DNA from: Nymphaea colorata
Lineage: Eukaryota; Streptophyta; Magnoliopsida; Nymphaeales; Nymphaeaceae
Assembly (NCBI RefSeq): GCF_008831285.2
Contig: NC_045141.1
Coordinates: forward strand, 15,548,106 to 15,612,105
DNA: 64,000 nt
Direction of reading: 5' to 3'
Below, one piece after another: positions 7,801 to 53,905 of this stretch. Under the pieces are notes generated by a model. It had not been told where the DNA came from. It did no database searches and worked only from the letters and a program-made list of their open reading frames with translations. The first letter of the stretch is position 1, and each line of letters begins with the position of its first letter. A program made the position numbers and the translations under genes.

Positions 7801-10800
7801 AGTCTTTTCTCATGTTGTTGTTCCCCAACTACACCCTTGCTATGGTGGTAGAACCTTGTCTTGCTGTCTCTCATGTTTTTGTTCCTTAGGTAGCTAGAAC
7901 TTCGTCTTCAAAAAGTTTTTTTGGCGTCTCCTCAATGCTTAAGTGGATTTTGGAGCCTTTACAAGGCTAGGAGATTCAACCGTAAGGGGCCAAGTAATCC
8001 AATTCATGACTTCTCTACCTGATGAAAAGAGATAATGAAATGCTCAACACTTCTTCTATTGAATGATGCTGTTTTTGCAGTAACTCCTGCTTTACCAGCT
8101 ATACTGAATCAGTAATTTTTTGTACTAAGCCTTAATAGTTCTTGGGCTATGTCAGATTTTGGGTGTTTTTTTTTTGGGCCTCCTGAGATGATACTGTTGT
8201 TTTGTTGCCCACCTGGAAGAGCAGTACAAATCCTGATCTAGGTTTTAACCATCAGCAAACAAAAGAATAAGGAAGTGGGGTTCATAAATCAAATAGAAGC
8301 CATCTACAAAGGGCCCAAGTTGTCTTCCTAGATTGCTCTCTTTCCGTTAAGACTGTTTTGAGGCAGAGGTATTGGTACCTGTTAGACACTGTTCATCTCC
8401 AACTCATGTGACTTGACAAAAATTGCCGCCAGAAAATGTCAAGCCGAAAGTACAGCCTAAATTGTTCTAATGTCATGCAGAAGCTGAGTGGAATATAAGG
8501 GAATGCATGCAGTTTCTCCATTTTTATTGTACAAAAACAGCTGAAACTTGACAGTGGTAAAAGAAAAGGTAAAAGTTTGAACATCCTTTCTCTTGGGGGA
8601 TCGGCAAGTGGGTGTTAGGCAAATACCTACCAGATTATGCCAAGAGTTGCACCTAGTTTATTGAACTGTTGGCCTTCTTCAACTTGAAGATTTCAAGCAC
8701 AACCCCTTAACTAGGTCGACAGATTTCTTGAGCATCTTATAGTCATTAGTTGAAAAGAAATAAAAAAATTGTCACTTACAATTGGACTGTCAAGTCTGGG
8801 TTTTCACTTTGATTTGTTTGCATACAGGGTAGCCATCTCTTTGTAAAATAAGCATGGAAAAAGAGATCATATAGGCAGTATGAGAAAGGCATTTGAAAGA
8901 TGCAAGAGTTTGCTGATTCCATCCTCATCTTTTGTTCATTGGACTAGCATCCAGAAAATGTGCCCTAATCTTCGCATTCACCCTTTCATAATTGAATGGA
9001 AAACCTAAGACACCATAGTCAAGTAAAACCGTACTTTCTGCCTTGCATTCTGTATGTTCTTTTGTGATGTTTTTTTAGTTGAGATGTCAAACCAGAGGTC
9101 TGAAGCAGGATGGATTGAAGTTGGCTATGTCATCCCAAGCTGATTAATACTTGGAGTTACGTCCTGCTAAGTAGGGCTGCACACGAGCCGAGTCGAGCTC
9201 GAGCTCAGCCGGCTCGAGCTCGGCTCGACTCATATTTAGCCAGCTCGAGCTCGACTCGAGCTCGTTACGAGTTTCAAAACTTCAGCTCGAGCTCGACTCG
9301 AGCGACTGCCGTCTAGCTCGAGCTCGACTGCTCAGCTTTCCTTTTTCGCTGCATTCGAGGGCTGGCAGACGAAGCGGAGAGGAGGAAAAGGGCAGACGAA
9401 GTGGGGGAAGAAATGGGCGTGTTGGGAAAAGAGAAGAAAAGGGCGTGAGGGGAAGAAAGGCGGCGTGTTGGGAAAAGAGAAAAAAAAAAAGAAAAATGAA
9501 CGTGGTGAGGAGAGAGAAAAAAGAGAGGGAAAAAAGTCGTTGATTGAAAAGTAGAATATAATAATGAGAGAGGGAAACTTTTAAACGAAAAAAAAGGAGG
9601 GAAGATTTTGAAAACGTCAAACAAGGTTAAAGTCGAGCCAAGTTGAGTTTAATCGAGCCGAGTTCGACTAACTCGAACTTGACTCATTAACATACTCGAG
9701 TTTAAGTTTAAGCTCGAACTCGACTCGTTTATAAACGAGTCGAGTTCGAACCGAGCTTTGTCGAGCGAGTTCGAGTCGAGCCCGAGTTGGCTCGACTCGT
9801 TGTGCAGCCCTACTGCTAAGTAACATTCAATATTGAATAGTGTCATCACAATGATCCAAAAATGAACTTCCCAAGTCCTTAATGTCCATTTGGTGATTCA
9901 GATCATGATAATGGAGGACAATAATCAAGTCCCCGGAGGCACAAACACACATAGTTTTAAATTGGTTTTGTTCATTCTTTCTTTTTGTGGGGACCTCTAC
10001 AGCCATATAAGCAGTTTTGTATAATTTTCATTGTGAAATGCATGCATATCCTAACAAGATCTGATAAAGTTGTAATTGTTCATGTCTTCTCCTTTCTTAA
10101 CAAGATCAAGAGCCCGTGTAGCTAACCAAGAGGTAACTATTCATGGTGGTTATAGAGATATCGTAGTCGTTTAGGAGGAATTCCATTAGTTTCATTTGCA
10201 TATGAGAAATCAAAATTTGTTGAGTTGCCTCCTCAAAGCTTAAGAAACATCAGAATTTTTGTTTTGATTCTGTATCAGTTAGCCTAGAAAGAAGGTATGA
10301 GCATATAATGACTTTTATACCTCCTTTACAATTTTATTTGTAAGGGCTTGGGATGAGCATAGAAAGACTTTAACAAATTTTAGTTCTATTTGCTGGTTTG
10401 ATTCTGCATAATTCTCCTGTTTGATTTTTCTTCATTTGAACTTTGAAGGTGTGCTCTACTGGGTTTCTTGCTGTATCTTATTTATTTATATTTTGCAGGC
10501 ATTTTCATGGAACAAATAAATTGTTCGCAAGAGGTGGATCAGATGAAGTGATTGGCTTGAGAGGACCTAGGAAAGAGAAACATGTAAAGAAAGCAAATAG
10601 AACACAACCACCTGTTGAAGCACCTTATGTTCCTACAGCAAAACGGGATGCCAAAACCCTTCCTGATAGAACCATTGACATATTTGAGGGCATGACAGTT
10701 GTAGAACTTGCTAAGCGCTCTGGCCACTCTGTTTCCTCTATTGAGGAGATCCTTACAAACGTTGGGGAAAATGTCAGCTCAGAATTTGATGCCATCAGCA

Positions 10801-13800
10801 TCGATGTAGCGGAGCTGGTAGCAATGGTAAGTGATATCCTTATTTTACCTTAGTTGTTTCCTTAAATTGTATTTCCTTCTATGCTAGACCTTAGCATATA
10901 ACTTAAGTGGTGTCTTGACCTTGACAAATTCATTTGATGTAAATCAGATGTATTTGCATCTGGCATGTTTGTGTATTTGGGTATTGTCATTATGGATGCT
11001 ATTTTAAGTATTTATCCTCAAAGTGGGAGCAGTGATTTTTGTGTCATTATTGTACATTTCTAAAATTGCTTGTCAAATCTATGTTGCAGCATATTTTCTT
11101 TCTACTTGCATTTTCCTCTGGATGCATGTAATGGTTTCTAGTTTTGGATACCGTTATCTGTCCTCATCTCTGTTAGAGGTTGTATTTGCTTTTAACCAAT
11201 CAAGATTAGTGCAGTGAGTCACTTAGTGTAGAAAGGCTTCTCAGATTGTAATATTATAGCCTATGTCACATGAGTGCGTGGTGCTGGAGCGGCAGATCCC
11301 AAAAAATTTCGGTGTGGCGTTGCGGCGAAGGTATTTTATTATTATTATTATTATTAATAATTTATTATATATATATATACCAAAATAAGCATGTATATAT
11401 TATTATTACAATTAGTTATTAATGTATATAGCATACTTGCATAATTGTATTGCGTAGAAAAATATAAGAACAACATATATTATATATAATATATTATATA
11501 TAGTAATTTAGTAATATGACATACTAAGTCTAATAAAAAATTGATAGAATCATAGAAGCAGAAATTGGAAATTTGATCGGCTCCATAATGCACATATAAA
11601 AAAGCTTATATTATATATTATAAGTTTATAACATGACAATATAACACTATATCAGGTGCAAAGTATATATTCACGGCTGCATATCTACACGCCTGACAAA
11701 TATATTTGTTTGTTGAACTTTGAAACTTTTATAGTAGATTCAAAACAACTGAACAAGCATCTAAATAAACCATTAATACCAAAAAATGGGACACATTTAG
11801 ACCGGACGTGGGTTGACTGCACTGGACTCGAGTGTGACGCGAGTCGGGTGCGTGTCAGAAATGGACAAATATAGTTTGGTGCAGCTGACCGCATCCGACT
11901 CGTGTTGACTGGGCTCGGGTGCGAGTTGGAGTCACACACATGTTCGGTGCACACTCGACTCAACGCGACTTGGGTGCGGCAATAAAATAGAAAAGTCCGT
12001 GTGACTTAGATTATAGCATAACATGTTTATGCAACATTAGAGTTATTGGAAAAGAAAGAAAAGCGAGAATTTGGAAAAAGGGAAGCCTGTTTGCCCATAG
12101 CCATTAACACAGTTACTTCATTTTGGCTTTGATTCTTAATTTTTATATAGAAAATTAGATTGAAAACTTCATAAAATTGGCTTTGCCCTATTCTTCAGTT
12201 GTATCCATGTGATATATATCCATAAGGAAGAGAGAACACAAGTATGCAGACAAGAAACCATTGATAAAGCGGATGCTGGAATAAACATGCAAATAAATAG
12301 CTGACCATGTCTTTACATTTTATACTTTGCATCTGTGACAATTGAGCAACAGTAATGAATATGTTTATGCAAAAAGAGGGAAGGTATGCTTGAATATTGT
12401 TTTGTCAAATACAAAATTTCATATCATTCATATGCATTAACCTTGGATAGGTTTGAAACATTTGGTTCTCAACCATCGAGTCTGGCCATTAGGATCTTTC
12501 AGATACTAAACTGTGTACATCCAAAGATTAGATGGTAGGAGAATATTTTCTAGGCAAAATTATGCATTGCAATTTGGTGTCTTTGGTTCAGCCTTTTTTG
12601 TTTTTATGTTTTTTAATCTATTGATTAAGAGTCTATTGCATGATCCAGAGTAACATGAGTTGTATTTTGTGCATTCTTGAGTGATTGTGCCACCAATGCC
12701 AATCTAAGATCATCTAGCAACCAGCCATTTTTTTCAGATGTCAGCAGAGACTATAGTCACAAATATCATTGTTATTTTACATTGAGATCAATACTGAATG
12801 TTTTGTGATGGGAAATGCTGGAAACAGGAAATGAGTGAGAAAAGTGGTGTGATAAACACTTCTGAGACTGATTATCCCCTTTTTTCATGTTCTTTTTGGA
12901 CCAGAACACTGAACATGTTTCTGCAAAACATCCAAACGTTATGGTGCTTTAGCCTATTTCTCAAACACATTTAGTATTTGATCTTCATCAGACCTATTGT
13001 CCTACAAAAGTAGCAGCTTTGAGTGTTACTAAAAAATGCATGTATAACAAAGGGTGGTTCTCTAGGAGAATGATGGGGCTCCTTACCTTCTTTGGTAGGT
13101 GTTCCTCTTTTTCCTTTATTGCTTTTGAAAAGATCATAGTCCAAGTAGTAACATGTTTTTCTTTGTTGCTACTGGTCCAGTAACTTTGTTTAATGTTATT
13201 TGTAACTCTAAATTATGTTTAGTACAATGACTTTATATTTCCAATACCTTTTCATCAACTTAGTTTTGTGGAGAACCAAAAATTTTTCAGAATATCCTGA
13301 AATCTCTGTGCAAGTGCATGTGTAGGAATGCGATCTGAAAGTATGGTAGATACTTCTTTTTGTTGCACTGTGGAGTGTGGACAGGTTTTGTCAGAGAACA
13401 TATTTGCACCTACGGTAAATATATTTCTTTGCATTATCCAGTGGATTCTGCTTTTAAGGATGCTGCATCATGTGAGCCGGAAATTGTTACCAGTTATTTT
13501 TCTTTTTTTAATTCAAGTTGAATGGCAAATACTGCAGGAAGTAGGTGTAAATGTAAGACGGTTGCACTCCAATGAAGGTGCTAAACTTCAACCACGACCT
13601 CCAGTCATAACAGTGATGGGTCATGTTGATCATGGGAAGACTTCCCTCCTTGATGCCTTACGTCAGACATCTGTGGCTGCAAAGGAAGCTGGTGGAATCA
13701 CTCAACATCTTGGTGCCTTTGTTGTTGATATGCCATCTGGAGCATCAATAACTTTTCTGGACACCCCAGGCCATGCTGCATTCAGCGCAATGAGGGCAAG

Positions 13801-16800
13801 AGGTGCAGCAGTTACTGATATAGTGGTACTTGTGGTAGCTGCTGATGATGGAGTTATGCCTCAGACACTTGAGGCAATGTCGCATGCGAAAGCAGCAAAG
13901 GTACCCATTGTAGTTGCAATAAATAAATGTGATAAACCAGCTGCAGATCCAGAAAAGGTAAAAATCCAGCTTTGTTCAGAGGGCTTGGTGCTGGAGGAGA
14001 TGGGAGGTGAGGTGCAAGTGGTTGAAGTATCTGCAACAAAAGGGCTTGGACTGGATAAGTTGGAGGAAGCTTTGTTACTTCAAGCTGAGTTGATGGATCT
14101 AAAAGCTCGGATTGATGGCCCTGCACATGCTTATGTTGTAGAGGCAAGACTTGACCGTGGAAAGGGACCTTTGGTCACTTCAATAGTGCGATCAGGGACC
14201 TTAGTTTGTGGCCAACATATTGTTGTGGGTGCAGAATGGGGCAGAATTAGAGCTATTAGGGATATGTTTGGTAAGATGGCTGATGTTGCAGGGCCTGCAA
14301 TGCCTGTCGAAATTGAAGGACTTAGAGGTCTTCCAATGGCTGGTGATGAAATTACTGTTGTGGAATCAGAAGATAGAGCAAGAATGCTTAGTTCTGGGAG
14401 GAAAAAGAGGTTGGAGCAAGAGAGGCTCAGGAAAATTAGTCAAGATAGGATTGAAACACCCGAAATATCTGAGGAATTCTCCGGAAGGGTTGAGATGCCT
14501 ATAATTGTTAAAGCTGATGTTCAAGGCACTGTTCAAGCAGTGACAGATGCATTGAAGAGCCTAAACAGTCCTCAGGTGTGTGCCCGCAAGCATGCATTCA
14601 TTCCATATGGGGATTTGCAGGCTGTGCAATCTTCATGATATCTAGTCATGTTTAAACTTTAAGTTTAAACAATGGTCCATGCCTTCTTCAGTTACATTGT
14701 AATTTGCATTGCTTGAGAATGATCAGGCTGCTCCTTGATGGAATGGGTGAAAAACTTGAAATAACCCCAAAGTTGTTCTTAACAAGAATCAAGTAACATT
14801 GCTCATTTTGACTTAAACAAAAATTTCAAATAACATCAAATTTATTCTTAACATGGACCAATTAACATTTTTCAGACAATGTCCATTTGATTTTAAGTCC
14901 ATTCTTTTTCCCTGTGCACCCCGCCCCCCCTTCTTTCAAGTTGGTTCAGTGACTCAGTCAAACTCAATTTGTTTGCATCAATAAAGAGATATGCTTTTCA
15001 TATAAATAGGGACAAGTACTGCACAATAAATATATGTTTTCCATGTCTCTTCTTTAACTCATCTGATTTGTTTCCTACTTGACAAGGTGCACGTTCTAAT
15101 TTATCTGCCAGAAAGATGCTAGATTCTTAGTTTTAGGAAAAAAAACTGCAGTGAAATTTTTTATTTGCCTTTTGGAGTAAGAAAAAACCGTATATGTGAA
15201 ATTTTTGCTGGTTTTTTGTCTAATGTGGCTTGTCCATGTGTCTTCCCAATATGCACTCAACTTAAATTCTGGTTTTAATCTTTATCTGGATTGCAGCTAA
15301 TAATTTATGCGGACAACTTCCCTGCCAACTTAGTTTGAGGTACAGAGTGTGATGTTCTTATGCTATGACCAGGTTTTTGTGAACATAGTTCACACTGGAG
15401 TTGGGCCAATTTCCCAGTCAGATGTTGACATGGCCCAAGCTTGTGGAGCATGCATAGTTGCTTTTAACATCCGCAATCCTCCAAGTTCTGTCACTCTTGC
15501 AGCTAATCGTTCGAACATTAAGGTGTGACTTTTATTGGCATTATTTTCTTGTTTCATCATGTGGGTAAAACCGTAAATGTCCGTACTTCTCTTTAGTTGG
15601 TTGAGAATGGTATCACTTTGTTTATTTTAGTTTGTCAGATGACATTCTGCATGGAGGTTTTTGTTATTTTGTAATGGGTGCATAAGATATTTTTGTTTTT
15701 TCTAGGATTAATAGTTCTGATGTGGCCCAAATACTATTGATTGAAATGGGAATTTTGAAAATGAAATCCTTACCCAGTAATACTTTTGACTAGCGAGTTC
15801 TGACAGCTGTCAGCTGTGAGTGTGGGTATGGGTTTGGAGATAGTTTGAAGAAAACACAGGTGCAGAGATACGGCCATAAACACACACACATGTATACCAA
15901 AAATAAATACGTACAACAAAAAGGAACAAAAATAAATAATAACAAAAAAGGATGAAATGCACATAAGCATGGAAGAGTGTTTTGAAAATGGTCAAGGTTG
16001 ATTGAGTCCAAAAAATGATAGATTCGGCCTCAGGTGCATTGACAAGGTCAATGCAGTGTCCCAGGCTCCCAGACATCTCAGAGCTTCCTCTGTTTCTGCA
16101 CCGATGTCCTGGCATGTTGACACGGTTACCTCCACTTAAACAGGGTGTCCGTGTCACTTAAGCTGCCACCTATATAGTGATCACATGCTTTTTCCAATCT
16201 TTTTGCCTCGATCTGTTTGGTGGATTTGGTCTGTTTTCTGGCTCAATATTTTGTGAGATACATGGTTTTCTCAATAGTACTTCTGGTGATTCTAAGTGAA
16301 GTGGTTATGCTTGATGCTTCACATGGTAGAATTATATCTTTTTAGAAGTCAATGCTACCATGGGTCTTTAGAGCTGTACTCAGAGTAGGATGGGGATTAG
16401 GCTGGCCCAATTGATATCTGTCACAGGTCTCTAGACTGTTGATCAGAGTCATCAGACTTTTAGTTTCTCAGCTCATCAGGTTGATGGGCCATGTGAAGAC
16501 CAGGGCATGGGGGCCTGGTCCATTGCTGGTGTATTAGCCCATGGGCCTGATTGAAATGTATCTGGTAGTGCTAACCAAAGATTACATTTAGGTATTCAAA
16601 TTCAACGTAAATATCACACTGAAAAGCGAGCAGAGAGAGAATAACACATCTAAAAGGTTATCTCCCTGATCATTGGATGCTAAAAGATGAGCATTTGATA
16701 AGGAAAGAGATGAACACCAGTATGATGTCATATTTGGTAGAACCGTGGAAGTCAGGATCTAATTTTCCATATACAGGCTTCAAGCTTCTTGCCACCCATA

Positions 16801-19292
16801 TGTCTGGCTATCTGGCTTCTATTGCAAGTCCAACTATGTAAATTGTAAAGTATCTAGAATTATATGTTCAAGAAAAAACATGAAAGCTTTTATTAGTAGT
16901 ACTAGTCCCTATATGGGCTGGTTGAATGGAACCAGTCTTATATATACTTGTGTGTGTGTGTGTAGATGGGGATAGAGAGAGAGAGAGAGAGAGAGGGAGT
17001 CCTGTTTTGTTCCTACTTATTAGCTTAAGGGTCAAACGTACCTTGATGACTAGTCAGGCTAGTTGATAGTTGGTGCCAGTAAACGCAAGAAATTAATAAA
17101 ATCATGGTGGCCGATTCCCCTCGTGTTGGCTTGTAGCTACTGGTTCCAATACGAAAACATAGACCGACATCTAAAAGTTTTTGATGTTGACATGCATTTT
17201 TTATGGACAATGAAAATCGGATCGTTGAGTTTAAATTGATGCATCTTGGTGGATCTCCTTCAGGAAATGTTGGCATGCAGATCCAAGTTGTAGGATCAGG
17301 GCCCTTAGCTATTGTCCTTGAGAAATGGCCGGCTAAGTTACAAATAAATATTTTTTTGGAGATTTTTTTAATTGAAGTAGGTGATGCTGTGATAATGCAG
17401 TGAAAAATTATGAAATTATGTCATTTATTCTAGAAAAGGAGTTCATTTCCTAAACATATCATAAAAAATCCTAATATGAAATTATGAAATTAAAAAAATC
17501 ATTTATATGTGTGTTTTTTGTATGATCTATGTAATATGGTTAAAGGTTGGGCTGTTGGAGTTTGCACCAATAGAGAAAAGGGTCTTGAAGTCATACCTCT
17601 ATGTTGAGAATGGATTGTGAAATCACTGCAAGAACCCTAGGCATCAGGTTAGATGTTTTAACCAACTTTTATTATGTAATTATATCCTTCCTTACTGGAG
17701 TCAAGCCAAATGAATCTTTATCAAAGGTTGATGAGGGTGACTCAAACTCACTCTGGCTTGGTCTAATGACTCTAAATATCGAACTTGATCATCAGATTGA
17801 CTGTAACTGAGCTCGAGTAGCTGGACTGATATATTCAACCCATGAACATGCAGCAAAATCTCAATACTTAGATGTATTAAATTTTAAGGTCAAAATATAT
17901 ATGTTCAGAAGGTCAATTCCTAACTAACCTGAGCATGTTATGGATATGGAGCACTAGTACAGGCCCATATGCAGAGACATGTACTTGCACATACACACAA
18001 CCATGGACTTAGAAACCAGTATAGGGGAGAAAAAAATTCAGAAACTGTTGCTGTTCAAGATTGAGTATGTAGTCTCCCAGGTAAACCGTTTTACTAAGTT
18101 TTCTTTTTTGACAAACATGACCTTATAGATGAGATCTGGTTTTTTGTGAGAATCAACACTTTGATTGTGTCGAGCAAGATTCCAACTCCCAGTTGATAGC
18201 TGTAAACACTTTGATTAAAATTGTGTTTCTTGGTTCGACAAACATGACTTCAAGGTCCATTTAGCAACAAATAGACCACGCTGAGCATACCTACATGAGT
18301 TGAAACAACTGCCATCATGAGTTCCTGGGAGATGTATTGCAGTGAATATGCGTTTACTGTCCATGGCAAGTGGATTTATACATGACATGGTGGATCCAGT
18401 CGCTGATGGTTTTCTTGTAATGGGCATTGAAATGAAAAGCAGGATATCAGATCACACTCTTAATCTCGTATTCCATTGAGAAGAAGGGATCGAATAACAC
18501 ACCCATATAATCTGCCTAATACATTAGTGTCTGGTTTGATTTCATCCACCGACTGTCCAGTTCTGTCATTACGTGACAAGAATTGGAAGTCTTCTCTGTT
18601 TTCAGCTGCGAACTGGTTCTGTATACTTTGGTAAACTTGACCTTCTTGTGATTTCCCTGTTTGGCTTTTAGTACCAGACACATCTTGCCCTCTGCATATT
18701 TAGTTTTACTTTTCACTGGGTGCTCTCCTGCCTCACTCATATGGTTGATAATATCTCCTGTCCTATGGCAATTTTCTATTAGACCAATGTTCAATCTTTT
18801 TCTGCTCTTTATTACGAAGATGACATTAAGACATTTTTATTTCTAATCTTTTGATAGATACGCCAACATCGTGTCATTTATCATCTGCTAGAAGATCTAG
18901 GCAGCTTGATCGTGGACAAGGCTCCTGGAGTCTTTGAAACTACAGTTGCAGGAGAGGCTCAGGTCTTGAGCATATTTGAACTAAAGGGAAGGAGCAAAAG
19001 CAAAGGTGCTGATGTTAAGATCGCAGGTTGCCGCATAACTGATGGTCGGTTCACAAAGTCCTCAACCATGAGACTCCTTCGCAGTGGCGAGGTTTTGTTT
19101 GAAGGGTCTTGTGCGTCCTTAAAACGTGAAAAACAGGACGTTGAAACCGTTGGTAAAGGGAATGAGTGTGGCCTTGTCATCAAGGATTATGACGACTTCC
19201 AGGTTGGGGACATCATTCAGTGCCTAGAACTTGTTAACAAGAAACCCAAATTTGTTTCATCGCAAAGCGGTGCTGTGAGGATCGAGTGTTGA
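1880..19292 (+). CDS. Mitochondrial-type translation initiation factor IF-2 (seven exons)
   Basis: GTPase that in this family brings initiator tRNA to the small ribosomal subunit of an organelle. Exons I infer: 1880-1903, 2089-2176, 7020-7089, 10499-10826, 13538-14575, 15373-15522, 18858-19292. All junctions are GT/AG and phases agree, giving 2133 nt and 710 aa. G-domain motifs: GHVDHGKT (residues 198-205), DTPGH (245-249), NKCD (299-302), then SATKG. Domains II to IV follow, ending in a C-terminal region with the motif VGDIIQCLE. The start with MAWRQLRK was chosen because it fits, as I recall, the N-terminus of plant mitochondrial IF-2 homologues; an out-of-frame ATG lies 4 nt upstream at 1876. 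Exons 4-7 are certain by homology. Exons 1-3 rest on splice signals and phase. Introns 2, 3, 4 and 6 are 2.7-4.8 kb and carry repeats. Organelle targeting is inferred from the family. Confidence 0.9.
3223..3598. repeat. 188-bp tandem duplication, two copies
   Basis: Copy 1 is 3223-3410 and copy 2 is 3411-3598, directly abutting. I count only three substitutions between them (near 3255, 3281 and 3332 in copy 1), so the duplication is recent compared with the surrounding decayed repeats. The unit has no ORF and I do not recognise it. Confidence 0.9.
5650..5930 (-). mobile_element. LTR-like promoter/polyadenylation segment (fragment)
   Basis: On the minus strand a TATATAAG box (5721-5728) is followed only about 45 nt later by AATAAAA (5671-5677). 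That close pairing is typical of the U3-R-U5 part of a plant LTR and unusual for a cellular promoter. I could not find matching LTR ends, a primer-binding site or coding domains, so this is probably a fragment of a retroelement that inserted in IF-2 intron 2. Confidence 0.4.
7548..7731. repeat. Imperfect direct repeat, about 73 bp, offset 111 bp
   Basis: Two copies (7548-7621 and 7659-7731) sharing segments such as CCATCTACTTGAG, ATGTTAAAGGTTG and GTTTGAGTCTGCAAGTG, with scattered substitutions. They lie inside IF-2 intron 3. No coding meaning is apparent. Confidence 0.8.
9172..9812. mobile_element. Nonautonomous hAT-type element with 8-bp target-site duplication
   Basis: The ends are perfect 12-bp terminal inverted repeats, TAGGGCTGCACA at the left and its reverse complement at the right. 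It is flanked by identical 8-bp direct repeats CTGCTAAG (9164-9171 and 9813-9820), the target duplication size of hAT transposases. The subterminal regions are packed with GAGCTCGA/GAGTCGAG motifs in both orientations, likely transposase-binding repeats. The 641-bp interior has no transposase; the centre (about 9340-9610) is purine-rich on the plus strand and yields only a low-complexity Ser/Phe/Leu reading on the minus strand. It depends on a transposase elsewhere. Confidence 0.93.
10827..13537 (+). other. Intron 4 of the IF-2 gene
   Basis: A 2.7-kb intron from GTAAGT (10827) to the acceptor ACTGCAG (13537). It contains an ATT/AT-rich tract at 11335-11520 and, at 11270-11330 and 11800-11990, two GC-richer patches with GTGCGG/GACTCG-like motifs that look like the ends of another decayed DNA transposon. 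The open reading upstream of 13538 is intron read-through, not coding. Confidence 0.65.
14576..15372 (+). other. Intron 5 of the IF-2 gene
   Basis: A phase-0 intron of 797 nt from a GTGTGT donor to the AG at 15371-15372. Nothing else is seen in it beyond AT-rich sequence. Confidence 0.75.
15523..18857 (+). other. Intron 6 of the IF-2 gene
   Basis: A 3.3-kb phase-0 intron from GTGTGA (15523) to TTGATAG (18857). It contains short TG and GA microsatellite runs (about 16950-16996). No coding segment or identifiable transposon was seen. Confidence 0.7.
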
Positions 19293-20531
19293 TAACGGTC
19301 TGCCCCAAAGTGTAACATTATAGTATGTCAAGAGGCTGATAGTTGAGGTATTTATCACTGTTTCGGCAGCACTATTTGCTGCCTACAAATTTTTTGTTCT
19401 CAGATTTTGTTTTTTATTATACTTGGCAAGGAGGGAATGAAGAAATGTTGTCGTGTTACTTGAAATTGTCTAAAGTGGACTGATTTATACAAGAATGATA
19501 ATCCTTTTTGGTGCTTCGGTGAAAATGTCAGTTGCATTTACTTGTGCAGGGATTGTTCTTTTTTTTTTTTGGTAGGCTGATCCTGAACTCGTATGTAATT
19601 ACCACAAATCTCTTCCGATCCTTCTCGGGTCCCGAGTGGGGTATCCAGCTTCGCGTTTTGGTAAAAGATATGGAATCGGAGATTGAAGCATGACCGATAG
19701 GCACCTCCCATACATTGTGCCCGCCCCTTTTGAGTCGCACTATGTCAATCCATGCGGTTTCCGCTTGCCTGTAATATGCAAAAAAGAAGTAAAGACGGGC
19801 TCTTTCATTTTAACAACTGTAATATGCAAAATTTATATTAACTAAAACACCTGTATTTGTAAGTAATCTTTCTAAAAGTTGTACCGTCATGTTGGCAGTG
19901 TGATATTGAGAGAACTTTCACACGCGCATGTAGATATATAAAATCATTTGATTTTTGGTTTGAATGGAGAAATCCTCCGACCTCACAAAAAATACTGCTC
20001 GATACATTGGGCGATCGTGCACAACCATGCATATGCATATATACACACGCGCCCTCACTGGATGTCCGAAAAAAATCCATGTTATATATAAATATAGTTA
20101 TAATTATTATGTGTATATTAGTCGCATGATTCCTCTGTTCCCGACTTCTTTATAGCCGGAGAATCCATGTTATAAGTAGAGATCTAGGTTTTCAAAGATC
20201 AGTGTCAAAATATTCCCAGACCAGGATATCAGGACCTGTGACCTGGTTCAGGCACTGCTCACCAAGGGACGCCAGATGAGGCGGAAATAGAAAAAGGAAC
20301 CCGAACAAAAGTTATGTCGGTTATAGAAATAAATCTTAATGCCTAAGCATTGTCCGGTTTAGCTAGAAACTGCACAAATTATGTCAATAATCTTTAATAC
20401 TTTTGAGTTGTCTGATAATTGCGTCATAATTCTCTGGCTACTTTCTTCTCTGTTGCTTGAACTTCTTCTACTCTGCAATTGGTTCGCAGGCCTTTTATCT
20501 TTTCTCCGCTGGTTCTCCCCTGAGATCGGTC
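19293..20531. other. Spacer between IF-2 and the GGPPS-like ORF
   Basis: It begins with the IF-2 3' UTR. The second half is AT-rich and contains TATATAAATATA around 20084-20095 that could serve the GGPPS-like gene. An ATG at 20381 opens a 100-codon ORF overlapping the GGPPS-like start in another frame, which would be an upstream ORF if transcription began before it. A good acceptor (TTCGCAG ending at 20489) follows a pyrimidine-rich run and could join an unseen upstream exon in frame with the GGPPS-like ORF. Confidence 0.45.
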
Positions 20532-21515
20532 ATGTCTGCAACTCCAAGTTATGGCGGCAATCCAAACGGCCCATCAGGCGCACTACCTGGAAACGATCAC
20601 AAGGCATCGCCATCATTCTTCTTTGCTCAAGATGCAGATTACTTGAGGCACTTCCTCTCATCAAAACGTCAATCCGTGCATGAAGAGCTGGACAAGGCCG
20701 TCTATTTAAGGGAACCCAAGATCATCCACGAAGCCATGAGGTATGCCCTTCTTACGGATGGTAAGTATTGCGCTCCCATCCTCTGTATTGCAGCCTGTGA
20801 ACTTGTTGGTGGTACCCAGGAGACCGCCATGGCTTCTGCCTGCGCCCTCGAGATGATACACGCTGCGTCCATCATTCAGGATGATTGTATGGATGATGGT
20901 GAAGTCCGAAGAGGGAGACCAGCAATCCATAAGGTCTACGGAGAAGCAATGGCGATTCTAGCAGCTGATGCACTCATAGCTCTTGCTTTCGAACATATTG
21001 CTTCTGCCAGCAGAGGCGTTCATCCGGCAACCGTTGTCAGAGTAATTGCCGAGCTCGCCAAAGCAAGTGGTTCGGAAGGAATGGCTGCCGGCCAGGTGGT
21101 CCACTTGGCTACGACAGGACAGTCTGACATTAGTCTTGATCAGCTGGAGTTCATCCATAATCATAAGACCGGTGCTCTGTTGGAGGCATCCGTGAAAATA
21201 GGAGCCATCATAGGAGGTGGCTCAGATGAAGCGATCAGAACACTTCAAAAATATGCGCGGTGTGTCGGCCTCTTGAATCAGATTGTTGATGACATACTTG
21301 ATGCAACAGAGTCATCTGAAGAACTGGGGAAGATGGCTGGAAAAGACGCTGCCGATGGTAAGATCAGGTTTCCGGACGTGATGGGGTTGCAGAGGTGTAG
21401 GCAGTTTGCTGAGGAACTGAACCAAGGAGCCAAACAGCACCTGTTGGGATTCCACGCAGATAATGTGAGGCCTTTATTGTGCTTCTCAGACTATATTGCC
21501 TTCAGGCAACGTTAG
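20532..21515 (+). CDS. Divergent GGPPS-like protein (possible non-catalytic subunit)
   Basis: A trans-prenyltransferase fold homologue of 327 aa from the first in-frame ATG, colinear with the canonical GGPPS at 29504 but changed at key sites. The IPP-binding motif GGKRVRP reads DGKYCAP (residues 76-82), losing both Arg. The first Asp-rich motif is two residues shorter: DDCMD (117-121) in place of DDLPCMD, then GEVRRG instead of NDDLRRG. GQVVD reads GQVVH (187-191). The second Asp-rich motif DDILD (253-257), KT (212-213) and a CxxxC (85-89) are kept. The intact frame argues against a pseudogene. It could be a GGPPS small-subunit-like partner, a changed enzyme or a recently inactivated copy. 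The N-terminus may be incomplete: an acceptor at 20489 would add residues resembling part of a transit peptide. Confidence 0.85.
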   Translation: MSATPSYGGNPNGPSGALPGNDHKASPSFFFAQDADYLRHFLSSKRQSVHEELDKAVYLREPKIIHEAMRYALLTDGKYCAPILCIAACELVGGTQETAMASACALEMIHAASIIQDDCMDDGEVRRGRPAIHKVYGEAMAILAADALIALAFEHIASASRGVHPATVVRVIAELAKASGSEGMAAGQVVHLATTGQSDISLDQLEFIHNHKTGALLEASVKIGAIIGGGSDEAIRTLQKYARCVGLLNQIVDDILDATESSEELGKMAGKDAADGKIRFPDVMGLQRCRQFAEELNQGAKQHLLGFHADNVRPLLCFSDYIAFRQR

Positions 21516-23191
21516 TTTCCCTTTGTTAACGTGATGTTACTGATGTATACCTGCATTTTACCATGTTAACAGACTTTTGTTTCATTTCTTGAATGAGAAA
21601 CACAGGCATAAATTATCAGGAAGATGGTTTGCAGCTGTTTGAGATCGGGTACAATGAGAGCTTGTTGTGTCTACAGAAAACTTAGACGTACCATGTCGGA
21701 CTCAAGTGTATATTGTTATCGGTGTTCGTCCGATTCAATCTTTTCTGCATCCGACCCCAATTTAGAAAATGATTTTTGTATGAACCAGGTCCAACTATGT
21801 TGCATGTTGGCTAATTTTTTCGCAGTTTTTGCTTGAACAATATATAATTTGGGTTACACCAAATGATGTGCTTTTCACGTGTTTAACCCGAGACAGATAA
21901 AAAGCTAGTATTTTGCTTATGATTTTTGGTCTAACTGACTGAGTTGAGTCCAAATACTGAGCTCTTCTCATGTTTGATTTCTATCATGAAAGTAGAGGAG
22001 GAATCTCTGCTCAATATGACAAATAGAAATATGCTGTTAATTATGTTCGACATGACTGTCTGTTAGTACCTGTAATTGGTTCAGAAATTTGATTTGGCTT
22101 CTTGAGCGCTGGCTGAATCCCTGAAGGTTCCTCCTCCCTTGCTAGTTCAATTCGATTGATCTAAATGTTGATCTTGCTAGTTCAATTCGATTGATCTAAA
22201 TGACTCCGTTTCACTGGGCCACGCAGAAAACAATTCTCCCATCAGACAAAGAAATGCCAGGCAAGAATCCTGCAGGCTAATGTGGTGAAGTGTTCCTTGT
22301 GCGTAGAGCCTTAGTCCTTCTCCATTGATAAGTTCCTCTACCATGTCAGCTGATTGTCTGCATTGTCGTGAAACGATGAACATCTTATGTTATTCCATTC
22401 AAATGAATCTGTAAGCATTTTTCATCAAGTCTGTTCAACTTTCTCATCTAATCTCATGATTATCGGTGTCATAGTTGTGGATGTAGAAAACCTGAACAGT
22501 GCTGGTGCATCTAGCTATGGAGTCACTGTTGGAGTGTGCCAAGTTAGATCTGCCATTTTCATGTACGTTAAGTTAGCCTGTTCTCTGTCTGAGGTAGCCA
22601 GATTGAGCTAAAAGGCAAACCAAATCGCCATTGGTTCAACTTGAATTGCCTTGAAATGAGCCAAACTCATTGACTTAGTTTCTTTGAGTTTTTTCTTGTA
22701 ACAACTTTGAAGAGAAAACCAGGTCTGAACACTATAAGCAGCAATGTTGAAATTCCTTCGCGCACACCTCCTTGGCCCCAATTTCTGCACCTATTTTGTG
22801 CTGGCGTGCACCTAAACTACAGCGCACACGTATCAAGATTCAAGCTGAAGTATTCACACCATACTGTCCAAACCAATATCATAAACATCCGGATCGGCGC
22901 CTTATACGGGACAATGTGATTCAGCCTGTATCGTGGATTTTTAAATTATTTTTTACATTAACTCATTTTTTTGAAATATCATATTATTAATATGACTGCC
23001 GCTACAGGCCATATATCTGCCCTTTTTTTCTGGAAAAAATGTGTGAATGGGATGATATGAATCAATACACGATGATATGGCAAGATTAGAGCAGACAGTT
23101 TGAATTCCCCTTAGAAGAATCTGCAACCTCTAAACCTTCCTACCAACCTAGCTCTTACTTGCTACACGTCTCAAAATTAAGAACCAAAGAT

Positions 23192-23390
23192 CAGTGGCAG
23201 AGCCAATTTTTTTTTTCTTAGGGGCTGAACTATCTTTTCCAAAACTTCTCTGAGGGCCAAATGACAATTTTCAAAGCTTTTCCATGGGCAAACTAATAAC
23301 TTTAAAAGTTATGACAAGTATTTTCTTGTTTCTTTTTTTTCAAAATCTCAGGGTAGGCTATTGCCCTTGCAACCCCTGCGGCCGCCCCTG
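23192..23390. mobile_element. MITE of the CAGTGGCGGAGCC family (degraded)
   Basis: It starts CAGTGGCAGAGCC and ends GCCGCCCCTG, like the other copies at 48774, 53941 and 59897. The inside is T-rich and noncoding. I could not see a matching target duplication. Confidence 0.55.
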
Positions 23391-24819
23391 AAAAGAATTT
23401 GCTTTTTTCTTTTCTTTTTATCTGCATTGAATTTAATGAAAATGATCTTTATCTATGAAGTGCTCAACGTATATATATAGATGTATATATAAATAATATA
23501 TATACACCCGTACCTCATATCCACAATTTTTAAAATTAATGTGTTTCATAACTGCTTCTTTGTATCGTACCCATACCAGCATCTGTGTAACTTTGTTTCT
23601 TTTCCTCATTGCTGTCCAAAGGAAGTGCATTTTCTTCACGTCTCGCATAAAGCATTTATGCAGAACCAAGTTTTCAGAAAACCAAGTTTGAAACAGGTTG
23701 GCATCCAATCAGCGCCAATAGTTGCGGACTTCCACGCTGAATTGATTGGACGTTGCTCTTTTTCTTTTTCAAAGTTAGAAGCATCACATGACTAATGGAT
23801 TCTCCGTATCGTTCCAATTCGATAAACCTGGTTTGAACAGGTAGGCATCCATCCAAGAGCTCCTGAAAAGATAATCCATGCTGAATTGATTGCAGCTTGC
23901 TCCTTTCTTTTCTTTTTCTTTCAAGTTAGAGTCTTTCTTTTTCTATTAAGTTAGAATCATCATGTGATTCATTACTTCACGGCAATTATTTGTTTTTGAT
24001 ATACTTAGGTATCATTATGCCAGCTTGTGGGCTGGATGTGCTGCAACTGTTAAGATTTGTACTGAAGCAAATTCTTGTCTGTTTGCTCCTACTATTTGCA
24101 AACAAAATCTGAATTTTCAAAGTGGTATTATAAAAATTTTCTAGTGGGTGTATGTTTTAAATAAGATTCATGATTTTGATGTTCACATTTGTTTATAAAA
24201 TTGTAAAGCTTGATGAAGGGAAAAGTATAAATAGATCTACCATATCTGAAGCATGTCTTTTAGTGAATATAAGATACAATTTTAATTTTTAAAAAATTTA
24301 CTGTATTTTTTTCAAGCACGCCATATTATACACAAGAAAAACATCACCAATTAAAATGCAAAAACTATATTTATGACTAATACAACAATGTCGCCACAGC
24401 AATTGAATTTGTATTTCTATGCATGAGAGAACAAGTAGAGGTGAAGCACCAAAAAATTGCAGATCTAATTGGAAAAGGTGAGGTATTCTGCTTTTAGTGT
24501 GTTAGACCAGGAGACGCTTAGGAGGAGTGGATGCAGGTGTTGGCAATTGCTCACACAGACCCACAAAAAATTCTTATTTTTATACTGACACATCAAAGCA
24601 TTTTTCTCCTTTACATGTTGGTGCCACATAAAAATTTTAAATTTATTACTAATGCCCCTTAGTCAGAAATTTCTAACTCCACCTGTCACTTAGTTGCTTA
24701 TGTGCAGACTAAAAAATAAGAGAATGACTGAGCAAAAGAGCTAAGTACCCAGCACCTATACATTTGTAATCATCTTGATCTCCATGCCAATTGCAATCCA
24801 AATATGCAACAAACAAAAA

Positions 24820-24821
<2 letters not shown>

Positions 24822-24862
<41 letters not shown>
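24822..24862. repeat. (TA)n microsatellite
   Basis: About 20 TA repeats in AT-rich intergenic DNA. Confidence 0.9.
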
Positions 24863-24865
<3 letters not shown>

Positions 24866-25984
24866 GACCAGAGTTGGTTCATAATTTGGCACATTTTATT
24901 CATAGCAAAAGACTATGAGGTTATGAGTCCAGCTGAGTTGCGGTGAGATGTTGCCATACCTTCAAATTTAATAACTGTCAGTTACTACAATAACATCCAC
25001 ATTGGCCCATAGTCACAAAAAATGCATTTTTTTTCAAAAAAACATGAAAAAACGTGATAAAAATAGCTGTTTAAAACTTTCAAAAAACACTATGTAAAAA
25101 AACGTTAACATGAAAAGAATGAGAAAGAAATGCATTTTTTCGTGTTTTACCCTTTTCCATTTTATTCATCTTTCATGTTTTTTAATATCAAATCGGTTTT
25201 TTATTTTATTTTCTAGTTTTTATTTGTTGCTAATTGACTTTTCTTTTGTGTTATCAGTTTCTCATTTATTTTATTTTTTTCTCATTTTTAATTTTTTTTT
25301 TTATTTTTGAAAATTTACCATATTTTTTTGTTTTTTTTAAGCTTGCTATATTATACCCAATAAAAACCTTGCCGTTTGAAACATGAGTAAGTTTATGTAC
25401 AAATCATCAAGGCACCTGCTTTAAACCATAGAAACTTGTGAATCAAGATGGTTTTGGAAACATTACATGGATCCAAAGAAACCCTTGAAGATTGAAAATG
25501 CAAATCCCTTCAATCAGATATGTTGAATGTCTCAAAGTAGTGATGCTTCCTAGTTTTAAAGGCTACCATTTGCCTTTTTATTAATCTTATAAACCTAGTT
25601 AGAGCAAAAAAATAGGAGAGGATGGTGTAAACCTCTTGCAAAGGAGAGCATTGAGCTTGCCTTCTATAACTGTATGCCAATAATTGTCCCGAGGTGCGTC
25701 TCTAGTTTGAAACCCATGGAAGGCTACGCTCCTGTATTGTAAGGAGGATGGATCCTACGTACAAATTGAAGCATACAGAGACCGCAACACCTAAGCGGAT
25801 CACCCAAAACTTTATGCAAATAATTAAGGAGTATTTTTTGGCTTGGCGAAAACAAGAATGCTCTACATATGAGGCAATTAAGTTTTGTATGCAATATAGG
25901 TCTTAGAGATTGGGAATGGGAATAAGAATGGATCTATCAACAGTAAGGTAGTATATATTGAATATGTTAAATGACCCATAAGAA

Positions 25985-26390
25985 GGGATAAATATTAGAG
26001 ATGTCAATATATCCGATTTGGATCAAATATACATTATTCTAAAAAAATCATATATGCAAAAAAAATAAAGAATTAATATCCGATTAATAAATCATTTCAG
26101 ATTTAAATTTAAGAAATGACATTCGATTGGATTCAAGTTCAGATTAAGATATACATGAATATCCAATCGGATTCATATCAGATTTAGTTTTAAATAAATA
26201 TAACATATCCACTGCTCTTAAAGTTTGAAAATCAAACCAAATTCGGTTCAAAATTCAGATTCAGATATCAATGTAAAAAACAGATTCAAACTGTAAAATC
26301 AGATTTTGAATTTAGAATTAGATATGATTTTTTATTTGTTTCAAATCTGAATATATGAATATCCGAAAAACGAATAGGGTATATCCATTC
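25985..26390. repeat. AT-rich dispersed repeat, copy 1
   Basis: Carries phrases such as GACATTCGATTGGATT, TTTAGTTTTAAATAAATAT and ATATCC that recur, diverged, near 35040-35260, 58795-59010 and 60960-61120. The shared order of these phrases indicates one repeat family. No ends, target duplications or coding capacity were found. Confidence 0.55.
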
Positions 26391-27084
26391 CAATACGATA
26401 AATCCTATATAGGGAAAAAGTGGGTTGGTGGAAAGGGACAAAAATAGAAAAAAATGAAAGAGGAAATGAAAAGTACGACGGTAGAAAGGGAATAAAGTGG
26501 AAAGATATTGGCTTTCATAATAAATGGTTTCAAAAACGGAAGAAGCTCGACCAGTACTTGACAAAAATATTTGCAATGAGATCAGTTGGACATCACCATA
26601 CTTAGCTTTCTTGCTTGCAATTCCTCTTTGGCATATTTGGGTTTGTTTTTATTCTAGTTTGTCACATTCACATTGATGTCGGTGATTTTTACAAAGTTAT
26701 TTACAAACCATGTCCGAATATTTCTCATAAATAAATTTCATACGCAAAAAACATTTGAAATTACGTATATACATTTACTTCATGGGAACCGATTAGGCGG
26801 TGCTTGTGGCTAGTTTTGCTCTGGTGTTGGCCAGAAATTCATTAGTTGCATTTCGTGGGAAACAATTTGCCCTTACATGGGAGGATAGTAGATGCAAGAA
26901 AAGGAAAACTTACTTGTATCTAATATTTATACTGAAAGAAAACAAAAAAATGGCGAATTTATAATATTATTCGCAGCTTCTTCTTATGAAAAAAGTCTTC
27001 GATTATGTTAAACAATGGATGTTCTTAACTTTTTGAAAACTAATTATTTGCTTTGCATGCAACATTTGGAAATAAATATCAACT

Positions 27085-27380
27085 CAAATTACTCGAGTTT
27101 GAGCTCGAGTCGAGCTCCATAGAACAGGCTCGAGCTTAACTCTAGTATACAGTGCCGGGCTCGAGCTCGACTAGCTTAACTCATTTATGTTAATCTGTTT
27201 CGTTTCTTTTGATTCATTTAACTGGTCGACTCGTTTAGCTTGTTAACTCGTTTAACTAATTCAACTACGATGAATCGTTTTACGTAATCGAGATTCATTT
27301 AACTGGTCGACTCGTTTAGCTTGTTAACTCGTTTAACTAATTCGAATCGTTTTAAGTAATCCAGCCAAGCTGAGTTTAAA
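27085..27380. repeat. GAGCTCGA-rich element remnant with 81-bp tandem repeat
   Basis: The left part is rich in CTCGAG/GAGCTCGA motifs like the hAT-type element at 9172. Then a unit beginning ATTCATTTAACTGGTCGAC occurs at 27212 and again at 27293 (period 81 bp). Probably a decayed relative of the 9172 family with an internal duplication; terminal repeats are not recognisable. Confidence 0.6.
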
Positions 27381-29236
27381 CGAGTCCAGCAACCTTTATA
27401 TATATATATATATATAATGAGTGCGAGTCTAATGTACTTATGTGAGCAGGGGGCAAGGGTGCCTTTTGCCGACAAAAGTTGATCAGTCATCTCAATAATC
27501 AGTGCCATCACAGTGACCATTGCCATCATTCTTTTATATATATTGCTGGGAGCCTAAAGCTAGTAGCACATTGGATGATGGGGTTAGGTATGAGCTGAGC
27601 TCATTGGATGCACCAATTATTGGAACACACTTCATTGTGTCCCCATCAAATTTTGCAACATGAGAAGAACCCTTTTAGGGAATCCTCTCAAATCTGTAAT
27701 TCTTATTACACGTCTCATATTATGCAGTAGTTTGTCTTACCTGTGCCCCCAATTGCTAGACAATTGCAGTTTTCTCTGAGACTGATGCAGAAAGATTACT
27801 AAATACTGTAGTCTTTAGTTTATATTTTTCTTTACGACCACGTTGTTTGTAGTTCCACTTAAGAGCAGAACGCAGGTTTAGTGGAAGCCGCAAATTTTTC
27901 ATGTCTCTGCATGGAGAACAGGCAGTTTTCTACTCTGTGTGCCTCCATGTATAGTGACCGCTTTTGAAACCATTTCTTAGCTCGGTTTGTGGTTTTGTAG
28001 AATGGAGAAGTGTATGTGGAAAGAGCCAAAGAAGCAGAGGGGTGGGCTCAGGCTTTCCTTTGCTTCATATTTACAGGAGGAGAGCTGCTTTGTATAGCTA
28101 TTGCTCCTCTGTGGACGCTGCATCTCTCTGTTAGCTTAAGTGCCTCCTAATTCAGATATGTTCCTTAGGAACATTGTTGTAAGAATGTCTTCTGTGGATT
28201 GAATTGATTCAGTTGAATTTATTCATTGTGAATCAGCTAAAAATATTTAAAATGTTTTATAAAAAACGAATGAAAATGCCTAGAAATAATTGAAAATAAA
28301 ATGTTTTAAAGAGTAACTAAAGTCGACTTGACTTAGCCGCAAAACCAAATAAGCTTGCCAACTATTCTGTTCGGATCGGCCTGCTCAGGCAGAGTCGGAT
28401 AATATTTGAGTCTTTGGACAGACCTTTGTCGAGAATTAGGAAAGCTGTTCAGTGTTCAGTTTCCTAGATTCTCATTGTTTTACTGCAAGCACATTGCCCC
28501 TCTTTGTTCTACCTGAAGGATTTAAAAATTATGCTCTAACTCGTTTACGCCTGGGTATTATATATAAAACAAGAAGATACTAGACTTTATTAGAATTGTC
28601 TATGATATTGATTTTAAGAAGATCATACAATGAAGATTAACCAAAAAAGTAGAAATCTAATTGTATTTTCAAAAAGATTGAAATACCTCTCAAATAAGGT
28701 GAGAAATCTCAATTAAGGAAACCCATTTAGGACATTTGAGTCTCTTGAAAATATAACTGGATTTTTTCAAATTTTTGCAACTTAATTTCTATAGTTAGAT
28801 TTCCTTAAAATCAATGACACAGACACTTCTTATCAAATCTGGCATACGAGGATTGTGTACCTGCCTGTTTTACTTTGCATATATAAGTGAATCGCATCTT
28901 CCACTTTATGACACTTTATTCATATGAAAATGATATGGAATTGTAATATTCACTTTCTCTGCTCATAAAACAAATCATTTCCATCACATTTTCTTTTCCA
29001 ATAAACATGACACACCAAGTTCGGAATCTTTAAGATGCAGTGATCGATTGGTCATCACGTCCTGTACGTGAATCAAATAGGAGTCAATGACCTAACTTTC
29101 AGGCATCTTTAGGTGAACGAAATTAATTAGAGATGAAACGAACAGGAGAAATGATTTGTGCCAGAAAGGCGATAGGGGGACTAATCCAAATGGTGAGAGT
29201 GCTCGTGCCCGTCTCTCCTCCTGTCCTCGGAGCCAC

Positions 29237-29245
29237 TATAAAAAA
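29237..29245 (+). promoter_or_regulatory. Probable TATA box of the GGPPS gene
   Basis: TATAAAAAA, about 260 bp upstream of the GGPPS start codon and followed by GC-richer sequence. It would give a 5' leader of roughly 230 nt if unspliced. Inferred from sequence and position only. Confidence 0.5.
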
Positions 29246-29455
29246 GGCGCATCTGGATGCCCTGTAATCCTGGCCATGGTGGTGGCGGGGACGCAGATTG
29301 CCCAAGTTGTTTCCAAGGCAGCCTCAAGGTAAAGTAGAAACACCAAAGAAGCGCTACCCACATCATTTTCTGCTTCAATCTCACCAAAATTTCTGTGTTT
29401 GTTTCAAAATGCGTAGGTGCCTCACATTTCTTGATAGAGTTCATCTTATATCTGA

Positions 29456-30673
<1,218 letters not shown>

Positions 30674-31694
30674 ATTCTACAGTGCTTTAGTTTTTTTCTA
30701 CATTTCGGAAAGACCAGTTTGTGTCCCCCTTTTTTTCCTTTCTTAGTTCTCAGCTGCCGAGTATGGTCGATTTTACGGCTTGCCTAGTTGGAAGAGCAGT
30801 ACTGATATGCCTGCTGCCTTGATGACTTCCTCAAGTGAAGAGACATGCAAGTACCTTCATCCATGTAACGTAATAGAAAGACATGATAGCTGATGTAAGA
30901 ATAATTTAGGAACAGGGGTAACAATTGCGGAGAAGAGCGATGGTGCAGGCAAATATTTTATTGGTTTTGCTATGTTGTATATGAATGTAATTTTACATCT
31001 ATGAATATGCATAGAAGAATCCTGTCAGCACCTCTGAATTCGATTGAAATTTTACTGCTGTTTGCTCATGCGTCTTTCTCAGGCAAAAGGTAATCTTGTG
31101 AAATTTTCGAACATTCGGATATAAATGAAGTAGATATTGCAGAAGCCGTTTTGGAATACCAGTGAGCTGATGTAAACTCAGTGGCCTGTTATTAATTGAG
31201 ATGTTTACAAAATCTGCCCATTTATGTTGCAGTGCTGCAATATAACCCCATATAACTTGATCCCAGAGCATTAAAAAATTGAGCAAGCGCCTCAATCAAA
31301 GGTGGGTATTCACAAAATTGAGCACAGTTGAATGATATGCATATATTTCATCAATAGTATCTAAGCCATACGGTTTCTATAAATATGTACATTGGCGATC
31401 TGTCCTTTGTGAAATATTTTGTCTTTGGTTGGATCTACATCATTAATCGCGTCTCCGTGAATATGTGCCATGGAGGCCCTTCTTTTTTCAAAGATTTTGC
31501 GTTCGTTTAACACTACAGTCTTGATCATATTTCCCAAGATATTGAGTGCCGTAGCTACTGCAGCGTATTGGCTTCCACCCGCTTATAGAATCCTCGGCCG
31601 ACTTTGGAGGAGAATCTTCACTTTACCCACTCAAGGCCTGTCATGGTCCACTAAGCTGCCTTTCATATTAACTAACTTCTTGCAAAAGATTGCT
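30674..31694. other. Spacer between convergent GGPPS and PPR genes
   Basis: It holds the GGPPS 3' UTR and, from the other side, the PPR 3' end. A 77-codon ATG ORF (31470-31703, plus) overlaps the PPR stop and resembles nothing I know. No repeats stand out. Confidence 0.5.
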
Positions 31695-37048: not shown

Positions 37049-37156
37049 ATGATGACGATGATGATGGTGGCGATGATGCTGATGATGATGATCATGACCA
37101 TGATGATGATGATGATGTTGATGGTGAGGAAGGATTTCAGTTGCGAAGCCGATTAA
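37049..37156 (+). CDS. Met-rich upstream ORF in the SAP30-like leader
   Basis: A 35-codon ATG-initiated frame in which 18 residues are Met, produced by a GAT/ATG trinucleotide tract (37049-37132). It ends 67 nt before the main ATG at 37224 and is not in frame with it. If the leader is transcribed from the GC-rich promoter, ribosomes would meet about a dozen and a half AUGs here first. It may repress the main frame or simply be a trinucleotide repeat; the reverse strand reads as poly-His. Confidence 0.35.
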   Translation: MMTMMMVAMMLMMMIMTMMMMMMLMVRKDFSCEAD

Positions 37157-37223
37157 TCGGCGAGTCGAATCGAGCGTGTTCTCCGTTTGGATCGCGTGTG
37201 GCGATTGAGCGTCCGGGGGGGAA

Positions 37224-53850: not shown

Positions 53851-53905
<55 letters not shown>

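Follow-up and report, generated by a model that had tools for sequence, protein, structure and literature searches.

The open reading frame (ORF) at 20532-21515 (+) in a stretch of 64,000 nucleotides from Nymphaea colorata (contig NC_045141.1; the whole stretch is called the window below) is probably a maintained, functionally diverged copy of geranylgeranyl diphosphate synthase (GGPPS). GGPPS supplies the C20 unit from which carotenoids and the tail of chlorophyll are built, and the small subunits of plant GGPPS steer carbon among monoterpenes, carotenoids and chlorophyll. The ORF runs over 327 codons without a stop, matches the Pfam profile polyprenyl_synt (PF00348) at 1.4e-53, and has Arabidopsis GGPPS11 as its nearest solved structure by sequence (7.7e-106). 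The original prediction, made from the letters of the window, had described it as a GGPPS paralogue with an intact frame, a shortened first Asp-rich motif and a lost IPP-binding motif, 8 kb from a canonical copy. The genes and the upstream segment concerned are the following.

20532..21515, +: GGPPS paralogue (P0001, 327 aa), polyprenyl synthase family by profile match and predicted fold
20430..20531, +: in-frame open stretch before the first ATG, with a candidate 3' splice site (ttcgcag, end near 20490) proposed from the sequence
29504..30673, +: canonical GGPPS (P0002, 389 aa), likely paralogue or partner of the former

The two proteins share 56% identity over 303 aligned positions, and 59% over the 276 core codons. 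Their N termini are of unequal length, and from residue 35 onward the sole internal gap is the L-P of the canonical DDLPCMD. When positions 15000-29000 were aligned with 29000-33000 at the DNA level, only the coding region matched (68% over 745 bases). The paralogue likely arose by local duplication. A tblastn search of the window gave no third GGPPS copy, whole or partial, its other matches having E values of 0.33 or more. The reading frame of the paralogue stays open 5' of the first ATG as far as 20430, so that 20532 is the first ATG only. A pyrimidine-rich run followed by CAG near 20490 may be a 3' splice site; in that case the paralogue would have an intron, unlike the canonical copy, which can be read as one exon.

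Conservation was assessed against 80 cyanobacterial CrtE loci and plant sequences taken from crystal structures (Protein Data Bank). The cyanobacterial proteins had first been picked with a motif filter (GGKR.RP, DDL, DDILD) that kept 75 of the 80; as such a filter is circular for its own columns, the conservation counts were redone unfiltered on all 80. The trees and the OsGRP-overlap, polarised-replacement and clustering analyses given below are those of the motif-filtered set. The Sinapis row lacks the residues disordered in the crystal and was excluded from the conservation counts. The changes that set the paralogue apart are spread over its active site, in which FARM and SARM denote the first and second Asp-rich motifs and IPP isopentenyl diphosphate.

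20757..20777, +: remodelled first IPP motif, DGKYCAP (canonical GGKRVRP), with R79Y and R81A
20784..20798, +: first CxxxC, CIAAC, common to the canonical copy
20859..20912, +: HAASIIQDDCMDDGEVRR, FARM cut to DDx2D, with a His to Arg-Arg spacing of 15 and not 17 (spacing classes from PMC7728057)
21090..21104, +: GQVVH (canonical GQVVD)
21162..21170, +: HKT motif, retained
21186..21200, +: ASVKI, at the site of the second CxxxC of small subunits (CSAAC in OsGRP); CxxxC absent
21276..21302, +: NQIVDDILD, second Asp-rich motif intact, the invariant Phe ahead of it replaced by Asn
21360..21374, +: KIRFP (canonical KITYP), invariant Thr replaced by Arg

Alignment with the canonical copy bears out the motif replacements that the original prediction had listed: GEVRRG stands for DDLRRG, DGKYCAP for GGKRVRP and GQVVH for GQVVD, and DDCMD for DDLPCMD, the deletion of exactly two codons turning DDx4D into DDx2D. 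The paralogue's version of the FARM region among these replacements is QDDCMDDGEVRRG. The second Asp motif (NQIVDDILD, against FQVVDDILD in the canonical copy) and HKT are also present as described. Five positions that are invariant in 80/80 cyanobacterial loci and in 6/6 plant large subunits are all altered, Arg79 being replaced by Tyr, Arg81 by Ala, Asp191 by His, Phe249 by Asn and Thr279 by Arg. Equally invariant and retained are G77, K78 and H110, the FARM aspartates 117, 118 and 121, R126 and R127, Q188, K212 and T213, Q250, the SARM aspartates 253, 254 and 257, and K267, K271 and K277.

Contacts with IPP and with the allylic diphosphate are assigned from the structures of farnesyl diphosphate synthases. 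At the seven positions that we take to form the IPP site, G76, R79 and R81 are changed (3/7), and G77, K78, H110 and R127 are kept, so that the IPP-binding motif, earlier called lost, is better described as damaged. D191 and F249 possibly contribute to the allylic side, which would then be affected as well. The broken conserved positions were not significantly clustered (8 adjacent pairs for 6.7 expected, P 0.33), nor did the IPP/FARM side differ significantly from the HKT/SARM/GKD side in the paralogue (6/20 versus 4/27 changed, P 0.29). In OsGRP the damage is concentrated on the second side (4/20 versus 20/27, P 0.0004).

The shortened FARM raises the possibility, which we consider doubtful, that the paralogue is an active prenyltransferase with a changed product or substrate. 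The motif now has the DDx2D form of solanesyl- and farnesyl-type enzymes, with the aspartates of DDCMD at DDxxD spacing. Because of the two-codon gap, the conserved His is 15 residues away from the Arg pair, a spacing given for group II (solanesyl) enzymes, that of plant GGPPS being 17 (PMC7728057). The AlphaFold2 model of the paralogue has a normal fold (pLDDT 84.5), in which helix D is predicted to reach residue 120, whereas in the model of the canonical enzyme it ends at the second Asp; the two AlphaFold2 alignments contained 34 of the 80 cyanobacterial loci and the two window proteins, and structures were compared through the VIA-align list. Five residues ahead of FARM, at what we take to be the first-floor position, there is Met in the canonical copy and Ala in the paralogue, a change that would permit longer products; Arabidopsis GFPPS2 and PPPS2 have Ser there. 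Retention of the FARM and SARM aspartates, of both Arg of RRG, and of K212, T213, K267, K271 and K277 would also suit an active enzyme. Against such an enzyme, all five invariant residues listed above are altered (R79, R81, D191 of GQxxD, F249 ahead of the SARM Gln, and T279), and the GFPPS2 and PPPS2 sequences retain them.

Constraint has acted on the paralogue, though less than on its canonical neighbour. Pairwise dN between the two copies is 0.27 and dS is 1.45 to 2.40 by two methods; 48 of the 81 fourfold sites differ, synonymous sites are saturated, and a maximum-likelihood dS of 11.5 is meaningless. If dS is split evenly, dN/dS on the paralogue lineage would be roughly 0.2 to 0.35. With four plant outgroups, 70 replacements were polarised to the paralogue lineage and 5 to the canonical one, 15 to neither, and 35 were ambiguous. 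At 83 near-universal positions (conservation of at least 97.5% among the 80 cyanobacterial loci, and a single residue shared by six plant large subunits), the paralogue retains 67 residues and OsGRP 49; at the 37 most variable positions it matches the cyanobacterial majority at 7.

The canonical core was also mutated in silico without selection, in 500 runs per level. After 200 substitutions, which gives the same protein identity as that of the paralogue, 0/500 copies were free of stops, and after 282, the number of nucleotide differences observed, 2/500 were. On these results we rejected the view that all of the divergence built up by neutral decay. A gene that is dead or dying after a recent loss of function is a separate case, and we judge it unlikely. 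Fast divergence, altered invariant positions and the lack of an obvious transit peptide would be expected of it, and pseudogenization is named in the Arabidopsis GGPPS family (PMC4034038). Moreover, 6.8% of the simulated copies were still stop-free after 100 neutral substitutions, so that a brief period without selection would go unnoticed. It is opposed by the lack of any stop or frameshift despite saturated synonymous divergence, by the finding that the divergence as a whole could not have accumulated without constraint, and by a GC content of 0.48 at third codon positions, the GC content of the flanks being 0.38.

What, then, would the maintained protein do? Our tentative proposal, made with somewhat less than even confidence, is that the paralogue has ceased to elongate chains normally and pairs with an active GGPPS, for example the 29504 product. 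An ancient duplicate of a plant GGPPS gene has probably been preserved by selection, with its active site rebuilt. Its product would be inefficient alone at normal IPP condensation, could still bind an allylic diphosphate, and would modulate an active GGPPS as its partner, in the simplest case the 29504 product, the heterodimer forming through the shared dimer fold. Among three open roles (partner, prenyltransferase of another product length, terpene synthase), that of partner appears the likeliest, since plants already have partner subunits derived from GGPPS, and those compared here all lack the same Arg. Position 81 is Pro in rice OsGRP and Ala in the mint small-subunit fragment and, by eye, in that of snapdragon; it is presumably Pro in Arabidopsis GGR as well. 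Neither OsGRP nor the mint small subunit is catalytic by itself.

Several points weigh against a partner role. The second CxxxC of known partner subunits is absent from the paralogue, and the Asp motifs, damaged in those subunits, are present in it; retention of all the FARM and SARM aspartates would go beyond the needs of a mere scaffold. Residues 1-35, with 1 K/R and 2 D/E, resemble neither the canonical N terminus nor a plastid signal, which speaks against a plastid partner unless the signal comes from an exon further upstream. The CxxxC reported earlier as remaining is indeed there, as CIAAC; as the canonical enzyme has the same CIAAC at that place, it is uninformative, and we discarded it as evidence for a partner role.

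The original prediction had proposed a regulatory or heterodimeric partner, or else an enzyme of changed chain length or substrate, the latter being the prenyltransferase alternative considered above. What holds is the general part, a paralogue that has been maintained, whose active site has changed and which is without Arg81, as small subunits are too; membership of the known small-subunit classes SSU-I or SSU-II is not supported. SSU-I proteins have lost both Asp motifs and carry two CxxxC (PMC4034038), in SSU-II proteins FARM is present, SARM lacks the last Asp and CxxxC occurs twice (PMC4034038; PMC7728057), and the two classes fall in one group (PMC4034038). With a single CxxxC, an intact SARM and its FARM aspartates kept, the paralogue satisfies neither class, and we rejected both assignments.

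It could still belong to the SSU-II (GGR/OsGRP) lineage, as a divergent or early branch in which SARM survived and the second CxxxC was not gained, but this is the least probable of the explanations considered. Fourteen of its residues occur in OsGRP and in no compared plant large subunit, including L106, A112, M184 and A185 (in ALEM, HAAS and GMAAGQ), and 17 near-universal positions are broken in both proteins, a weak excess (P 0.03). The 14 shared residues are 14 of 143 private to OsGRP, that is 10%, within the range of the six large subunits (4/28, 0/16, 2/29, 2/33, 5/45 and 6/60 private residues shared with the paralogue). In protein trees of 24 and 23 rows, built from 14 of the 80 cyanobacterial loci and the plant crystal sequences, the plant part was nearly star-like; the mint small-subunit row, a fragment of 124 residues, was omitted from the second tree. 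All four groupings put to the approximately unbiased test survived it (p 0.27, 0.289, 0.109 and 0.297), among them that of the paralogue with OsGRP (p 0.289) and, equally, that with the canonical copy (p 0.27). The absent second CxxxC and the complete SARM also count against SSU-II descent.

Loss of the first-motif arginines suggests yet another role, that of a prenyltransferase-derived terpene synthase, ionising geranyl, farnesyl or geranylgeranyl diphosphate (GPP, FPP or GGPP) through both Asp motifs; with IPP not properly bound, the cation would be quenched or cyclised. We regard this as improbable. There is an experimental precedent: a rust-fungus GGPPS carrying the mutation R81P had no GGPPS activity left and produced a little (E)-nerolidol, and this R81 is equated in the paper with the KKxR arginine of an insect farnesyl diphosphate synthase (PMC7484799). 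In our reading it would be the Arg of GGKRVRP. Sandfly enzymes have likewise lost IPP contacts, with FARM and SARM reported as conserved in LlTPS2 (PMC12376265, PMC10962984), and SARM is conserved in the fungal MliILTPS1 (PMC7484799); in the paralogue R79 and R81 are gone and all FARM and SARM aspartates stay. As both DDxxD motifs, RR, KT and the lysines of GK...GKD are kept, FPP or GGPP would bind and ionise without condensation.

The parallel is imperfect in that the insect and fungal counterparts often change SARM or many more IPP contacts, which weakens the case for a terpene synthase. The sandfly enzymes lose 9 and 12 of 15 contacts, whereas the paralogue retains K78, H110 and R127; the fungal ILTPS2 and ILTPS3 have an altered SARM, and GGPPS-like proteins of termites are described as conserving only FARM and one other motif (PMC13143122). 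In addition, D191, F249 and T279 are changed too, ordinary small subunits also lack the same Arg, and no plant enzyme of such origin was found in the literature among the matches listed. That a plant terpene synthase should have arisen directly from GGPPS by loss of IPP binding, close to an intact parent gene, as in insects and rust fungi, seems to us quite improbable.

Other genes and repeats were noted in the window. A gene for the organellar translation initiation factor IF-2 has exons at 10443-19292 (+), the last ending about 1.2 kb upstream of the paralogue; they match GTP_EFTU, EF-G_D2, IF-2 and GTP_EFTU_D2, and IF2_N weakly, under the cut-off. Convergent with the canonical GGPPS gene, 31695-33470 (-) encodes an intronless pentatricopeptide repeat protein of 591 aa with E and E+ motifs. 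An ORF at 36854-37549 (-) contains a long His-rich low-complexity run, with overlapping Asp-rich and Met-rich frames, a repeat of CAT/ATG type being the source. At 53678-54340, a unit of about 105 nt is present four times (75-90% identity to the first) as two tandem pairs 372 nt apart, with spacings of 91 and 95 and TA and AC runs between. Finally, a 236-aa ORF at 62939-63649 (+) has no Pfam match at 0.01; it appears to resemble exon 1 of a plant gene for the mitochondrial calcium uniporter.

No plant GGPPS combining a DDx2D FARM, a broken first IPP motif and an intact SARM was found in the open-licence literature, a weak negative that leaves aside sequences in figures and supplements. The FARM of Taraxacum GGPS is given as DDxxD or DDxxxxD, in a family that may include solanesyl-type genes (PMC11478434), and a few of 75 cotton GGPS members have deletions in the Asp-rich domains (PMC10077690), reports which leave room for earlier examples. 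Some gene-family papers write FARM as DDX2-4D (PMC7284688, PMC13210408), in a shorthand that includes SARM as DDxxD and one CxxxC (PMC7284688). The paralogue would pass as an ordinary GGPPS under it, and similar genes may thus hide in plant genomes. If the proposed role is true, the paralogue would represent another way to build a partner subunit; under the terpene-synthase alternative, it would mark a transition between prenyltransferase and terpene synthase within plants.

Compared with known systems, the paralogue shares the polyprenyl synthase fold and homology of the plant large subunits (AtGGPPS11, 5e8l; mint large subunit, 3kra_A; OsGGPPS1, 5xn5), as well as a DDxxD SARM (DDILD) and a single CxxxC (CIAAC). 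It departs from them by DDx2D in place of DDx4D, H-X15-RR in place of H-X17-RR, the loss of R79 and R81, and D191H, F249N and T279R; the GKR that defines their first IPP motif (PMC7728057) is absent from its GKYCA. With the SSU-II proteins (rice OsGRP, 5xn6_C; Arabidopsis GGR) it has in common the loss of Arg81, and with OsGRP HAAS ahead of FARM and GMAAGQ. Unlike them, it lacks a second CxxxC, has a complete SARM and a shortened FARM, is changed at far fewer of the near-universal HKT/SARM/GKD positions than OsGRP (counts above), and has nothing inserted between G and K in the first IPP motif, such an insertion being described for SSU-II (PMC7728057). Like the SSU-I small subunit of mint GPP synthase (3kra_B, the 124-residue fragment) it has Ala at position 81, but it keeps the FARM aspartates and SARM and has one CxxxC. 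Arabidopsis GFPPS2 (5e8h) and PPPS2 (5e8k) resemble it in having a small residue five before FARM, and PPPS2 in having DGK; they retain DDLPCMD, GKRVRP, the Asp of GQxxD and FQ, which the paralogue does not, and with R79, R81, D191 and F249 changed it has not the intact catalytic motifs of that type. Outside plants, the terpene synthases of Melampsora that resemble isoprenyl diphosphate synthases are GGPPS paralogues without the Arg of KKxR (PMC7484799); they are far relatives of demonstrated activity, likened to the paralogue by description only, and SARM is kept in MliILTPS1 and changed in ILTPS2 and ILTPS3. The trait that the paralogue shares with terpene synthases of this origin is the loss of the Arg of GGKxxR with FARM and SARM aspartates kept. 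As judged from its motifs, the paralogue matches none of the plant classes tested, and its combination of a damaged first IPP motif, a DDxxD FARM, an intact SARM and one CxxxC lies outside all of them.
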